Positions 4,361 through 12,386 of a stretch of 64,000 nucleotides of DNA are shown here, one piece after another; position 1 is the stretch's first letter; each line of letters begins with the position of its first letter. The position numbers and the translations under genes are program-made. The notes under the pieces are model-generated. The model searched no databases and was not told the DNA's origin. It saw only the letters and a list, made by a program, of their open reading frames with translations. The stretch covers positions 62,001 through 126,000 of the forward strand of contig LYSY01000009.1 of the NCBI GenBank assembly GCA_001657395.1, read 5' to 3'. Source of the DNA: Rhodospirillales bacterium BBD 1991-14. GTDB lineage: Bacteria; Pseudomonadota; Alphaproteobacteria; Kiloniellales; Kiloniellaceae.

Positions 4361-5434
<1,074 letters not shown>

Positions 5435-5437
5435 GCC

Positions 5438-7098
<1,661 letters not shown>

Positions 7099-7100
7099 TC

Positions 7101-7382
7101 ATGGGCCTCTCGTGGATGGCCTGGACCTGGCAGACGGCGACCTTCTTCAGTGTCATCGCCCTGTTGCTGATCGGCATGACGGTCTGGGAATGGCGGCGCC
7201 CCGGCGGCAGCCCGCGCCGCGGCGTTCTGGGTCTCGATACGACCCGCGGCGACCGCCTGTTCATCTCGCTTTTGGGCAGTGCCTACATTCATCTCGCCTG
7301 GCTGGCCCTGGCCACCGGGCCGCTGTGGATCGCCACGGTTATCGCGGTGATCTACGCGCTCGCGGTCTTCCGCTGGGTGTGA
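7101..7382 (+). CDS. glpU: Small membrane protein GlpU (DUF2160)
   Basis: A 93-residue protein with two or three hydrophobic helices (an N-terminal one, then about 17-30, then near the C-terminus). It matches the DUF2160 proteins that always sit between the permease and binding-protein genes of this type of glycerol importer. Its role in transport is not established; a small accessory membrane subunit is the natural guess. ATG 7101 follows GGGGAGGG with 7-base spacing; the upstream TTG at 7095 would overlap glpQ. Confidence 0.85.
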   Translation: MGLSWMAWTWQTATFFSVIALLLIGMTVWEWRRPGGSPRRGVLGLDTTRGDRLFISLLGSAYIHLAWLALATGPLWIATVIAVIYALAVFRWV

Positions 7383-7414
7383 GGGGGACTGCCGACATGG
7401 AATTCGCTTTCGCT

Positions 7415-7433
7415 CCGGGCACGGTCGTGCCGG
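7415..7433 (+). promoter_or_regulatory. Hairpin between glpU and glpV
   Basis: In the 160-bp gap before glpV the run CCGGGCACGGTCGTGCCGG can fold into a 7-bp stem with one bulged G and a GGTC loop. No U-tract follows, so it is not a normal terminator. A processing or attenuation site that lets the binding protein be made in excess over the permeases is a common arrangement, but this is inferred only from position and folding. Confidence 0.35.
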
Positions 7434-7542
7434 ATTTGCAGAAGGGCGCTGGCGAAGGCGGCTGTGCGGGGGCTCCACGCTCCCCACGGCCGGTTTTTGG
7501 GCCCGTTTCCGGGCGCATAAGAACCTCAAGGGAGGAGGGAAT

Positions 7543-9273
7543 ATGAAGAAGCTACTGGCATCAGCCACCGCGCTGGCCATGCTTTGCGGGGCGGGTCCTG
7601 CCTTCGCGGACATGGCAGCGGCGGAAAAGTGGGTTGATGAAGAGTTCCAGCCTTCGACGCTGACTCGCGACGAGCAGCTCGCGGAGATGGACTGGTTCAT
7701 CAAAGCCGCCGAGCCCTTCCAGGGCATGGAGATCAACGTGCTGTCGGAGACGATTCCGACCCACAGCTATGAGTCCGAAGTCCTGACCAAGGCCTTCGAA
7801 GAGATCACCGGTATCAAGGTGAACCACCAGCTTCTCGGCGAGGGCGAGGTGGTTCAGGCGGTGCAGACGCAGATGCAGACGCGCCGCAATCTCTACGACG
7901 CCTACATCAACGACTCCGATCTCATCGGCACGCACTCGCGCCTCCAGCTTGCCTACAACCTCACCGACTTTATGGAAGGTGAGGGCAAGGACGTGACCAA
8001 CCCGGGTCTCGACATCGATGACTTCATGGGCAAGTCCTTCACCACCGGGCCGGACGGCAAGCTCTACCAGCTGCCCGACCAACAGTTCGCGAACCTCTAC
8101 TGGTTCCGCAAGGACTGGTTCGACAAGCCGGAGCTGCAGGCTCAGTTCAAGGAGATCTACGGTTACGACCTGGGCGTGCCGGTGAACTGGTCCGCCTATG
8201 AGGACATCGCCGAGTTCTTCAGCGTCCACGTGAAAGAGATCGACGGTGTGCGCGTCTATGGCCACATGGACTACGGCAAGCGTGCGCCGGACCTCGGCTG
8301 GCGCATGACCGATGCCTGGCTGTCGATGGCCGGTGCCGGCTCGACGGGCCTGCCCAACGGCGTGCCGATCGACGAGTGGGGCATCCGCATGGAAGCGGGT
8401 TCCTGCAACCCGCAGGGCGCATCGGTGTCCCGCGGTGGCGGCACCAACGGTCCAGCGGCCGTCTATGCCATCCGCAAATGGGACGAGTGGCTGCGCCAGT
8501 ATGCGCCTCCGGGGGCGGCCAGCTACGACTTCTACCAGTCGCTGCCGGCGCTGAGCCAGGGCAACGTGGCCCAGCAGATCTTCTGGTACACGGCCTTCAC
8601 CGCCTCGATGGTCAAGCCGAAGGCGGACGGCAACAACACGGTCGATGACGAGGGCAACCCGCTCTGGCGGATGGCGCCGAGCCCGCACGGCCCCTATTGG
8701 CAGGACGGTCAGAAGCTCGGCTATCAGGACGCCGGGTCCTGGACCATCCTGCAGTCGACGCCGATCGACCGCGCCAAGGCGGCCTGGCTCTACGCCCAGT
8801 TCGTCGTGTCCAAGACCGTCGACGTCAAGAAGAGCCACGTCGGTCTGACCTTCATCCGCGACTCAACCGTGCGGCACGAGAGCTTCTCGGAGCGTGCGCC
8901 CAAGCTGGGTGGTCTGGTCGAGTTCTACCGCTCGCCCGACCGCGTCCTGTGGTCGCCGACCGGCATCAACGTTCCCGACTATCCGAAGCTGGCCCAGCTC
9001 TGGTGGCAGCAGATCGGTGACGTGAACTCCGGCGCCTTCACGCCGCAGGAGGCCATGGACCGCCTCGCCGGCGAGATGGACCAGGTGATGGCCCGTATGC
9101 AGGCGGCCGACGAGCAGGCCAATGTCTACGGCGGCTGCGGCCCGCGCCTGAACGACGAGCAGGACGCTTCGGCCTGGCTCGGCAAGCCGGACGGCCCCAA
9201 GGCCAAGCTCGCGAATGAGAAGCCCCAGGGCGAGACCATCGCCTATGAGGAAATCATCAAGCGCTGGCAATAA
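7543..9273 (+). CDS. glpV: Glycerol ABC transporter substrate-binding protein GlpV
   Basis: A 576-residue periplasmic protein. The first 22 residues are a signal peptide ending GPAFA before Asp23. Mature residues include the type-1 solute-binding run TIPTHSYESEVLTKAFEEI near 70. It is larger than usual sugar-binding proteins (about 430 residues), as expected for the GlpV class. It delivers glycerol to GlpPQ-GlpST. A strong GGGAGGAGG ribosome site precedes the ATG, and the operon terminator lies about 70 bp after the stop. Confidence 0.92.
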   Translation: MKKLLASATALAMLCGAGPAFADMAAAEKWVDEEFQPSTLTRDEQLAEMDWFIKAAEPFQGMEINVLSETIPTHSYESEVLTKAFEEITGIKVNHQLLGEGEVVQAVQTQMQTRRNLYDAYINDSDLIGTHSRLQLAYNLTDFMEGEGKDVTNPGLDIDDFMGKSFTTGPDGKLYQLPDQQFANLYWFRKDWFDKPELQAQFKEIYGYDLGVPVNWSAYEDIAEFFSVHVKEIDGVRVYGHMDYGKRAPDLGWRMTDAWLSMAGAGSTGLPNGVPIDEWGIRMEAGSCNPQGASVSRGGGTNGPAAVYAIRKWDEWLRQYAPPGAASYDFYQSLPALSQGNVAQQIFWYTAFTASMVKPKADGNNTVDDEGNPLWRMAPSPHGPYWQDGQKLGYQDAGSWTILQSTPIDRAKAAWLYAQFVVSKTVDVKKSHVGLTFIRDSTVRHESFSERAPKLGGLVEFYRSPDRVLWSPTGINVPDYPKLAQLWWQQIGDVNSGAFTPQEAMDRLAGEMDQVMARMQAADEQANVYGGCGPRLNDEQDASAWLGKPDGPKAKLANEKPQGETIAYEEIIKRWQ

Positions 9274-9431: not shown

Positions 9432-10493
9432 CTATTCGACGCGCTGGGCGGAGCGGATCATGGCGGCAAGCAGGGAGAGGTCGAGGGGCCTGCGGGGCGG
9501 CAGCCCCAGATCCGCCGCATAGTCGGCCGCCGCGGCCTGAACGTCGCGGGACGCGTTGGCATACCCCAGGGCTTGCAGCAGCGTGGTGGCTGAAGCCGTC
9601 GGCACTGTCCGCACCGGGCCTCTGTCGGCAGGCTGGCCCGGGTCGCCCAGCAGGTTGCCCCGGCGGGTCATCGCCGCCTGGCGGGCCAGCGCGGATCCCT
9701 GCGCGGCCCCGCGCACGAAGAAGTCGGCCAGAACCCGCATTTCTCCATCGGCCATGACGAAGGGCGGCAGTCCCCGCTCGGACGGGGTCGCCTGACAGAG
9801 ATCGGCCAATGCTGCTCCCCGGCCTGCCTCCCGGCCCTTGCAGCCGAAGTAGAGGGAGACCGCGTGGGGCCAGTCGACGCGGTAGCCCGCCCGCAGCGTG
9901 ACGGCTTCGCCGCGCGCTTCGCGCGCTTCCAGACCCGGATCGCGCCACTGCAAACCCAGCCAGCCGGTCGTGAGGCCGATCGGCTCCGCCAGCTTCAGAA
10001 CCGCCCAGTTGTTGGCCAGGTTGGCCAGGTTGGCACCGGCGGCGGGCGTGTACCCGGGCGCCGGGGTGAAGCCGGCAATCTTGGAGTCGGCCAGGAAACG
10101 GTCGCGCTGGTAGGCCGCAATGAAGTGCAGTTCCTGCGGCTGCCACCAGCGGCCTTCGCGCTTGGAGTAGAGGCACTGCGCCTGGGTCAGGACGAGTTGC
10201 GGCGCGATCAGGACACCGTTGCAGAAGCCCTGGCCGGCCAGATTGACCCGCCCGAGCGCGCTCCAGGGATATTCCTGGGCATCGGCGATCACGCGGCCGT
10301 CCAAGGGGGTCGGGTCGGTGCGCGTTGCTGCGGCGGGCGGTGTCTCGTCGCGGGTGGCCGCGGGGGCCGGCGGGGCCTCCTGCCTCGGGGCGCAGGCCTG
10401 GAGGAGGAGCAGCAAGGCCAGGCCGCTCTGTGCGAGCGCACGACGTATTGTCGCTGGCGCCGGGCGGCGGCCATCCGATCGATCTGTGAACAT
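9432..10493 (-). CDS. Trypsin-fold lipoprotein lacking the catalytic triad, with C-terminal peptidoglycan-binding-like domain
   Basis: A 353-residue secreted protein with a lipoprotein signal (LLLLQAC, Cys34) and a Pro/Ala-rich linker to about residue 65. The trypsin-like fold spans about 72-265, but all three catalytic positions are changed. The family TAAHC is TQAQC (Gln106 for His), NDWALL is NNWAVL (Asn162 for Asp), and GDSGSP aligns with SERGLP (Arg240 for Ser). Residues 303-350 resemble a peptidoglycan-binding domain (TLLQALGYANASRDVQ ... GLPPRRPLDLSLL). It is probably a non-catalytic envelope protein. ATG 10493 has an AAAGGAAA ribosome site; an earlier in-frame ATG would break the lipoprotein signal. 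Confidence 0.75.
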   Translation of the reverse strand: MFTDRSDGRRPAPATIRRALAQSGLALLLLLQACAPRQEAPPAPAATRDETPPAAATRTDPTPLDGRVIADAQEYPWSALGRVNLAGQGFCNGVLIAPQLVLTQAQCLYSKREGRWWQPQELHFIAAYQRDRFLADSKIAGFTPAPGYTPAAGANLANLANNWAVLKLAEPIGLTTGWLGLQWRDPGLEAREARGEAVTLRAGYRVDWPHAVSLYFGCKGREAGRGAALADLCQATPSERGLPPFVMADGEMRVLADFFVRGAAQGSALARQAAMTRRGNLLGDPGQPADRGPVRTVPTASATTLLQALGYANASRDVQAAAADYAADLGLPPRRPLDLSLLAAMIRSAQRVE

Positions 10494-10733: not shown

Positions 10734-11258
10734 ATGACCTTACGGCCAAGCCGTCTTTTGGCGGCCGTTTTCGTACTGCTGTTTTCTGCCGCCGGTGTTC
10801 AGGCCCAGGGTCAGGCCCAGGATCAGACACAACCGGCCGCTGCGGCGCCCGCCGGTGGCCCGCTTGCGGGCGTCAACGTCCTGCAGCTCTCGATCGCGCC
10901 GCTCAGCGCGGATTCGCAGCGCTGCGGCCTGCAGCAGGACCTGGTTCTGGAGTCGTTTCAGCAGCCGCTGGTTGCCGAGGGGCTTTCGGTTCAGCGGTCC
11001 GCCCACGTGCGCATCGTGGTGACCGCGACAACGGTGGTCTACGAAGGCGGCACCTGCATCTCGACCATCGGGGCCATGGCGACCCAGAACACGCGTTACT
11101 TCGACCGCCAGACCCAGGCGGAGCGGGCCGGTCAGGTGCTGATGTGGAGCGACTCCGGCCTTTTCGTCACGGGCGAGCGCGATCATGTGGTCCTGACCAA
11201 CATCGGTTTTCGCGATCTGGCCCGCTCCTTCGTCCGCAAGTGGCAGCTCGATCAGTAA
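10734..11258 (+). CDS. Secreted hypothetical protein
   Basis: A 174-residue protein with a clear signal peptide (1-24, ending GVQAQ) and a low-complexity Gln/Ala/Pro stretch (25-42). It then has a compact region with two Cys residues (CGLQQDL and GGTCIS) that could form a disulfide. I recognise no family. The ribosome site GGAGGAG sits 3 bases before the ATG. It is divergent from the pseudo-trypsin gene across 240 bp, so both could share envelope-related control. Confidence 0.7.
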   Translation: MTLRPSRLLAAVFVLLFSAAGVQAQGQAQDQTQPAAAAPAGGPLAGVNVLQLSIAPLSADSQRCGLQQDLVLESFQQPLVAEGLSVQRSAHVRIVVTATTVVYEGGTCISTIGAMATQNTRYFDRQTQAERAGQVLMWSDSGLFVTGERDHVVLTNIGFRDLARSFVRKWQLDQ

Positions 11259-11567
11259 GGCGCAACACCAAAACGCAGAAATGAGGAAGAAGATGCAACC
11301 TTAAGGTTGTGATCTCGATTCCGATGCGCTAAACTTTAAGAAGAAGCGGCAGTAGAGCCTGCACTTCAGTGCTCTCTTCCCCAAGAAAGCTTCCCTTCTC
11401 TTGCCCCCGCCGACCTCCCCGGTGGGGGCGTTTCCTTTGCAGCGCCCGGCGACTGCGATAGCTTGAAGGGAGCTTGGCGTAGGGGGGCCGTCGTCCGTCA
11501 CCTTCGGCGGATGACTTCCGTGGGACCGAAGCAGCGCCAGCGATTTTGGGGAGAGAACTGGGCACCT
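11259..11567. other. 309-bp gap between the secreted protein and the LOG gene
   Basis: The gap holds a perfect 14-bp palindrome, CAACCTTAAGGTTG (11296-11309), and a GC-rich hairpin (GCCCCCGCC 11403-11411 with GGTGGGGGC 11421-11429, one G-T pair) followed by GTTTCCTTT. The hairpin may be a weak terminator. I see no credible gene in it. Confidence 0.4.

Positions 11568-12386
<819 letters not shown>

Follow-up and report, generated by a model that had tools for sequence, protein, structure and literature searches.

The window, by which we mean the whole 64,000-nucleotide stretch of DNA analysed here, carries at 9432..10493 on the minus strand a gene for a 353-aa protein of the S1 (chymotrypsin/trypsin) family that has lost its entire catalytic triad, and this gene is our main finding. 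Its trypsin-fold domain (about residues 65-275; 9669..10301, minus strand) has Gln106 at the His57 column (codon 10176..10178), Asn162 at the Asp102 column (10008..10010) and Arg240 at the Ser195 column (9774..9776), all three codons on the minus strand, and a Ser at column 238, the position of Gly193 in active S1 peptidases. Assignment to the family comes from an S1 profile match and a predicted double beta-barrel, whose nearest fold neighbours are glutamyl endopeptidases and YdgD. A pattern search places a lipobox, LQAC, at residues 31-34 (10392..10403, minus strand), downstream of a hydrophobic stretch and with Cys34 as the predicted lipidation site; the same search finds LQAC or LGAC in 8/8 Pelagibius orthologues, and under a stricter rule the lipobox of the window protein is of weak grade. 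The protein is probably lipidated, which would give it a membrane anchor. Residues 285-353 (9435..9641, minus strand) form a divergent three-helix domain that resembles PG_binding_1, for which there was no Pfam match in the window protein or the 7 Pelagibius orthologues scanned, and no Foldseek hit at E <= 0.001 with the domain alone. The initial annotation had described an S1-fold lipoprotein with Gln, Asn and Arg in place of the triad, and fold prediction and pattern search both bear that description out. Because the triad and the oxyanion residues are changed, loss of protease activity is expected. Compared with glutamyl endopeptidases and other V8-like proteases and with E. coli YdgD, the window protein has lost the triad and oxyanion centre and has added a lipobox and a C-terminal domain; our literature search found nothing on YdgD as a periplasmic serine protease.

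The flanking genes are on the plus strand. Convergent with the window gene is an ABC transporter operon (4361..9273) whose ATPase is nearest to UgpC, at a score under the UgpC cut-off, and whose last gene encodes a putative binding protein; we saw no evidence of a functional link between this operon and the window gene. On its other side the gene stands head to head, in 8/8 Pelagibius genomes, with a gene for a small secreted protein (10734..11258) that gives no Pfam or NCBIfam match, and between these two neighbours lies the Pelagibius site. Further along is a lysine-decarboxylase-like/LOG gene (11463..12386), a homologue of which also adjoins the corresponding gene in both loci of the f7g17 group, which supports common descent of the site. 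It had been suggested that the small secreted protein could be a partner of the window protein, and co-occurrence across 143 genomes does not support this outside Pelagibius: homologues of the 10734 gene are present in 20 genomes and adjoin a relative of the window gene only in the 8 Pelagibius genomes. The Kiloniella homologue lies on a different contig in 8/8 genomes that have one, two genomes (G008, G011) have the small gene and lack the other, and four genomes of the Denitrobaculum group show the reverse. With adjacency limited to one genus, we set aside the idea of a general partner.

Relatives with and without the triad

Matches to the window protein were obtained in 53 of the 143 genomes searched (its own included), among Pelagibius, Kiloniella, Denitrobaculum and uncultured Kiloniellaceae; the first three genus labels are our own assignments. 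Triad counts are based on 87 protein rows read from the places fetched, leaving out 13 places whose match was weak (E no better than 2e-12; G029, G058 and G060 of the order are among them) and a 154-aa overlapping frame at L053. His, Asp and Ser are all retained in 48/87 rows. We use the term Ser-less for the other 39 rows, which come from 24 genomes; 38 of them show another residue in place of Ser, and in the remaining one (G022) that position was unread. No residue of the triad survives in 22 of the 39, including 8/8 Pelagibius rows, and 16 still have His, Asp or both (His in 7 Denitrobaculum-group rows, Asp in 7 rows, both in 2). Ser-less forms occur in three genera of this family, and two other families have them as well. 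An order-wide search covered 61 genomes and gave a match in 39, three of which were too weak and were left out; a Ser-less gene is found in 24 of the 61, with an intact copy alongside in 22, a co-occurrence counted over related genomes and hence not over independent events. The two exceptions, where no intact copy was seen, are G021 (97% complete) and G022 (77%). All 8 Pelagibius genomes carry both a triad-less orthologue and an intact paralogue, and the window's own genome has one paralogue with intact H, D and S.

The lipobox is distributed unevenly. The pattern is seen in 8/8 Pelagibius, 2/2 f7g17 and nine main Kiloniella rows and in G049; a convincing lipobox is absent from the Denitrobaculum group and from a Kiloniella form of about 280 aa. 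Under the strict rule 20/39 Ser-less rows pass, one of them (in the Denitrobaculum group) doubtful, against 0/48 intact rows, among which G017 reaches the same weak grade as the window protein.

We compared 36 intact Kiloniellales rows with the 39 Ser-less rows column by column. The losses centre on the active site, at columns 104, 106 (His57), 162 (Asp102), 231, 238 (Gly193), 239 (Asp194) and 240 (Ser195), and extend to 241, 242 (Ser197), 244 and 256 as well as 73, 90 and 166. Against this, 21 columns of the trypsin-domain framework are invariant in 39/39 Ser-less rows: Y75, P76, W77, S78, G81, R82, N84, G87, C91, A105, C107, Y128, Q129, W163, L168, G173, G177, W178, G203, Y204 and C218. New majority residues have also appeared, among them Leu156 (37 of 39 rows), Leu242 (36), Glu113 (32) and Trp208 (30), and Asn occupies the Asp102 column in 29/39. 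The initial annotation took the protein for a protease converted to a structural or decoy role in the envelope. A non-catalytic envelope role fits the conserved Ser-less group, its purifying selection and the lipobox; a decoy that mimics the enzyme toward substrates is less likely, because the oxyanion and pocket columns (Gly193, Asp194, Ser197) are changed too, and we gave that idea less weight also in view of the His of column 258, which is present in 28/36 intact rows and in only 6/39 Ser-less rows.

Nei-Gojobori dN/dS values were computed for the protease domain and the ten closest pairs listed for each group, with several dS values high or saturated. Among the listed Ser-less pairs with finite dS, dN/dS is 0.02-0.31 overall: 0.078-0.31 in Pelagibius, 0.02-0.09 in the Denitrobaculum group and 0.02-0.14 in Kiloniella. 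The closest Pelagibius pair has 0.078, against 0.032 for the intact copies in those two genomes, and in f7g17 the Ser-less pair has 0.124 against 0.18 for the intact pair. Across Pelagibius genome pairs the Ser-less proteins are 60-94% similar and the intact ones 71-98%, the Ser-less being less similar in 27/28 pairs and equal in one. As judged from these substitution patterns the Ser-less group is under purifying selection, and by the same evidence the window gene encodes a pseudoprotease, a protein kept in the absence of its catalytic residues. We regard the existence of this conserved pseudoprotease as close to certain.

Whether the triad was lost once or several times depends somewhat on the tree. 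When only the triad columns are masked, a quick tree puts the 39 Ser-less rows in one group and needs one change (SH-aLRT 95 for the split, with long-branch warnings). A careful tree, from which the motif regions and 7 long outgroup rows were removed, needs two changes because the intact G046 row falls within the Ser-less group. With motif columns removed, a single change is enough in only 14% of 200 bootstrap trees, and a constraint holding the 39 rows together is not rejected (p-AU 0.298). A single origin is likely. The G046 protein (L048/L143, 2-1201, plus strand) has H, D and S but reads GASGSP instead of GDSGSP; given its place on the careful tree, it may be an intermediate.

Genomic settings of intact and Ser-less copies

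In the window's own genome (G000) the intact paralogue lies 3' of genes for an LssB-type ABC exporter, an HlyD adaptor, a LapG-family protease (PF06035) and a PAS/HD-GYP protein, all on one strand; the opposite strand carries a gene for an outer-membrane efflux protein upstream of the operon and, past a set of glycosyltransferase genes, giant RTX genes. The locus has the parts of a Lap/Dvh-type system, namely an LssB-type T1SS, a BTLCP protease, a candidate c-di-GMP receptor and a giant RTX adhesin. TIGR03375 scores 991 bits (cut-off 693), TIGR01843, PF06035 and HD_5 are above their cut-offs, and RTX repeats are present; the LapG equivalog NF045674, at 91 of 320, and a dCache match in the HD-GYP protein, at 18.4 of 45 bits, are under theirs. 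Three LapG-family matches occur in this genome (G000:C3:18044-18511, G000:C1:826121-826567 and G000:C15:825147-825599), one of them in the adhesin operon. The minus strand of L191/L192 (G000:C3 about 30000-57142) has consecutive giant genes, an RTX ORF of ~1180 aa and another of >5000 aa, together with a VWA/DUF5801 gene cut off by the contig end. Several glycosyltransferase genes (L190:12431-17792, plus strand) separate the S1 protease from the giant RTX genes and perhaps serve in adhesin glycosylation. The window gene itself is outside this locus, on contig C11, whereas the adhesin locus is on C3.

The HD-GYP gene is a steady companion of the intact protease. It is found in 27/28 Kiloniellales-type intact loci (at least 245 bits with the paralogue and at least 1.5 kb upstream), L151 being the exception and L143, L154 and L159 being too short upstream to count. 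Among the intact loci less close to the paralogue, nine (L161, L180, L182-L188) are without it, as is the frame-split L189, and L181 is too short to count. In 28/28 rows from 27 loci SQ replaces HD in the HD-GYP protein. The available part of the Dvh paper describes DvhD, with SQ in its HD-GYP domain, as a c-di-GMP receptor that does not hydrolyse c-di-GMP in vitro (PMC13090378), and the PAS-HD-GYP protein of L190 (8567-10660, plus strand), like its counterparts at 27 named loci, has both SQ for HD and a Met before the His of HERLDG, as in DvhD. Its sequence makes this protein a candidate for a Dvh-type c-di-GMP receptor in Alphaproteobacteria. A PF16448 (LapD-type) scan gave no match in the window's own genome nor in 14 control genomes and is hence uninformative. 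The Kiloniellales operon resembles both the Lap (LapA/LapD/LapG) and the Dvh (DvhA/DvhD/DvhG) systems in its T1SS adhesin and BTLCP protease, and the Dvh system in its PAS-HD-GYP receptor that reads SQ for HD, as those systems are described in the available part of the same paper (PMC13090378). It differs in having an extra S1 protease with a PG_binding_1 domain 3' of the receptor gene, and the main text of that paper contains the terms serine protease, trypsin and OmpA 0 times. The window gene departs further in being outside the adhesin operon.

The sites of the Ser-less genes differ among genera; our gene calling in the neighbourhoods is rough and overlooks some genes, such as the OmpA gene in L194, which was placed separately. 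In two sister genera, 12/13 genomes have an OmpA gene and a Ser-less gene 382-747 bp apart. In Kiloniella (8/9 genomes, not G022) the Ser-less gene concerned encodes the 280-aa form, at a distance of 382-523 bp from an OmpA-family gene (PF00691 above cut-off in the one protein scanned). This OmpA gene adjoins the beginning of a giant adhesin-like gene in 7/8 regions, the contig ending first in G014. With the giant genes of Pelagibius, those of Kiloniella have an MTDDL start and cluster similarity in common; a scan of a single N-terminal stretch found no RTX match. In the Denitrobaculum group 4/4 genomes have an OmpA homologue 628-747 bp from a Ser-less gene. Elsewhere, in G004 and G007, the OmpA homologue and the intact protease are on one contig, 36-40 kb apart. 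The Pelagibius Ser-less gene has no OmpA-flanking arrangement. A second Kiloniella group lies behind pstSCAB-phoU-phoB, directly 3' of phoB in 6/8 loci (PhoB identity tested in L158 only). At two of the pst-phoU-phoB sites (L158:8977-10990 and L173:9797-11845) there is a tandem pair of Ser-less S1 genes, one with a lipobox and the other with a hydrophobic N-terminal stretch and no lipobox.

Possible roles of the inactive copy

As the intact sister copy sits in a giant-adhesin cluster, the dead copy may help to control surface attachment. Our best reading, which we hold tentatively and at slightly less than an even chance, is that the Ser-less proteins are non-catalytic envelope partners in adhesin control. 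In Kiloniellales, an S1 protease that was secreted, had a PG_binding_1 domain and belonged to a Lap/Dvh-type adhesin operon would long ago have been duplicated, presumably in that direction. The duplicate would have lost its catalytic centre while retaining the trypsin framework, and in some lineages, Pelagibius among them, it would have a predicted lipid anchor that intact copies lack. Surfaces still common to the intact enzyme might then bind the intact protease or a joint ligand, for which the adhesin retention region, the OmpA protein and the LapG-like protease are candidates, and such binding could tune adhesin processing or retention. The link to adhesion in Pelagibius itself we infer from the neighbourhoods in sister genera and from the operon of the paralogue; the Pelagibius gene is outside the adhesin locus, so that support comes from other groups of the clade, and the phoB-linked Kiloniella genes point elsewhere or only to regulation. 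A more ambitious and rather doubtful version would have a Dvh-type c-di-GMP adhesin switch with a second protease layer in Kiloniellales, in which a peptidoglycan-bound S1 protease competes with, or is licensed by, envelope-anchored inactive copies, and release reflects the balance of active and dead forms, in Kiloniella possibly under phosphate control via PhoB.

Some of the same observations could be read otherwise. The lipobox and PG_binding-like tail of Pelagibius would suit a structural tether that links outer membrane to peptidoglycan, with the protease domain as an inert spacer and adhesion uninvolved; we think this unlikely, since the tail lacks a Pfam match, the one 280-aa Kiloniella form scanned shows Trypsin only, and a spacer sits poorly with 21 strictly conserved trypsin-domain columns. 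Just as unlikely, in our estimate, is a new ligand-binding role apart from adhesion, such as metal, phosphate-stress or small-molecule sensing, for which the metal binding of MamO would be a parallel: the phoB-linked Kiloniella copies, the transporter operon beside the Pelagibius copy and the variation of sites between genera are in its favour, but it leaves aside the OmpA neighbourhood in 12 genomes and the adhesin neighbourhood in 7. Catalysis through a relocated or unusual active site might be proposed from the conserved framework, from His57 in 7/7 Denitrobaculum-group rows and from the two Kiloniella rows with His and Asp; we consider it very improbable, as Ser195 is replaced in 38/38 rows read by residues that vary by group, with no conserved Ser, Cys or Thr at that column, and the Gly193 and Asp194 columns are changed in most rows as well. 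The missing catalytic residues, taken alone, could even mark a decaying pseudogene retained by chance in one genome. Homologues that kept the triad had been named as the sign of such recent decay; the orthologues are open and triad-less in 8/8 Pelagibius genomes with low dN/dS, the intact copies are the adhesin-operon paralogues, and the Ser-less forms extend over three genera and two further families, so that we discarded this explanation as scarcely credible.

For a non-catalytic partner in adhesin control, the retained framework, the selection and the frequent intact companion would fit by analogy with MamO and MamE. In the available portion of the paper on MamO of Magnetospirillum, this protein activates MamE-dependent proteolysis non-catalytically (PMC4794232). 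MamO, as described there, also shares with the window protein an alphaproteobacterial origin, a trypsin-like fold with degenerate triad and non-Gly193, and an active relative as its pair; it differs in being HtrA-homologous, with a transporter domain and a magnetosome role (PMC4794232), whereas the window protein is nearest in fold to glutamyl endopeptidases and YdgD and has a lipobox, a PG-binding-like tail and an intact relative in an adhesin operon. CspC of Clostridioides difficile is likewise, in the part of the paper available, a bacterial pseudoprotease that activates a related protease (PMC4619724), but is subtilisin-like and acts in spore germination, and the animal serine protease homologues (clip-domain SPHs, scabies SMIPPs) are unrelated in lineage and setting. 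Our literature search found nothing on bacterial trypsin-like pseudoproteases tied to peptidoglycan, only an Antarctic community review on Pelagibius or Kiloniella proteases, only reviews, judged by title, on LapG/LapD adhesins with a trypsin-like protease, and, by title or abstract opening, no pseudoprotease system in an adhesin or biofilm setting. As far as this limited search goes, a dead protease of this kind with an adhesin-operon paralogue is unreported, and the one bacterial pseudoprotease of trypsin fold and known role that we recognised in it was MamO. The present family is a conserved pseudoprotease family spread across three families of one order, its intact paralogues serve as built-in controls, and the Lap/Dvh-type operon of those paralogues carries an additional S1 protease gene. 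Marine bacteria thereby offer a way to test what function dead proteases have in the envelope and whether anything beyond a LapG-type protease takes part in adhesin release.
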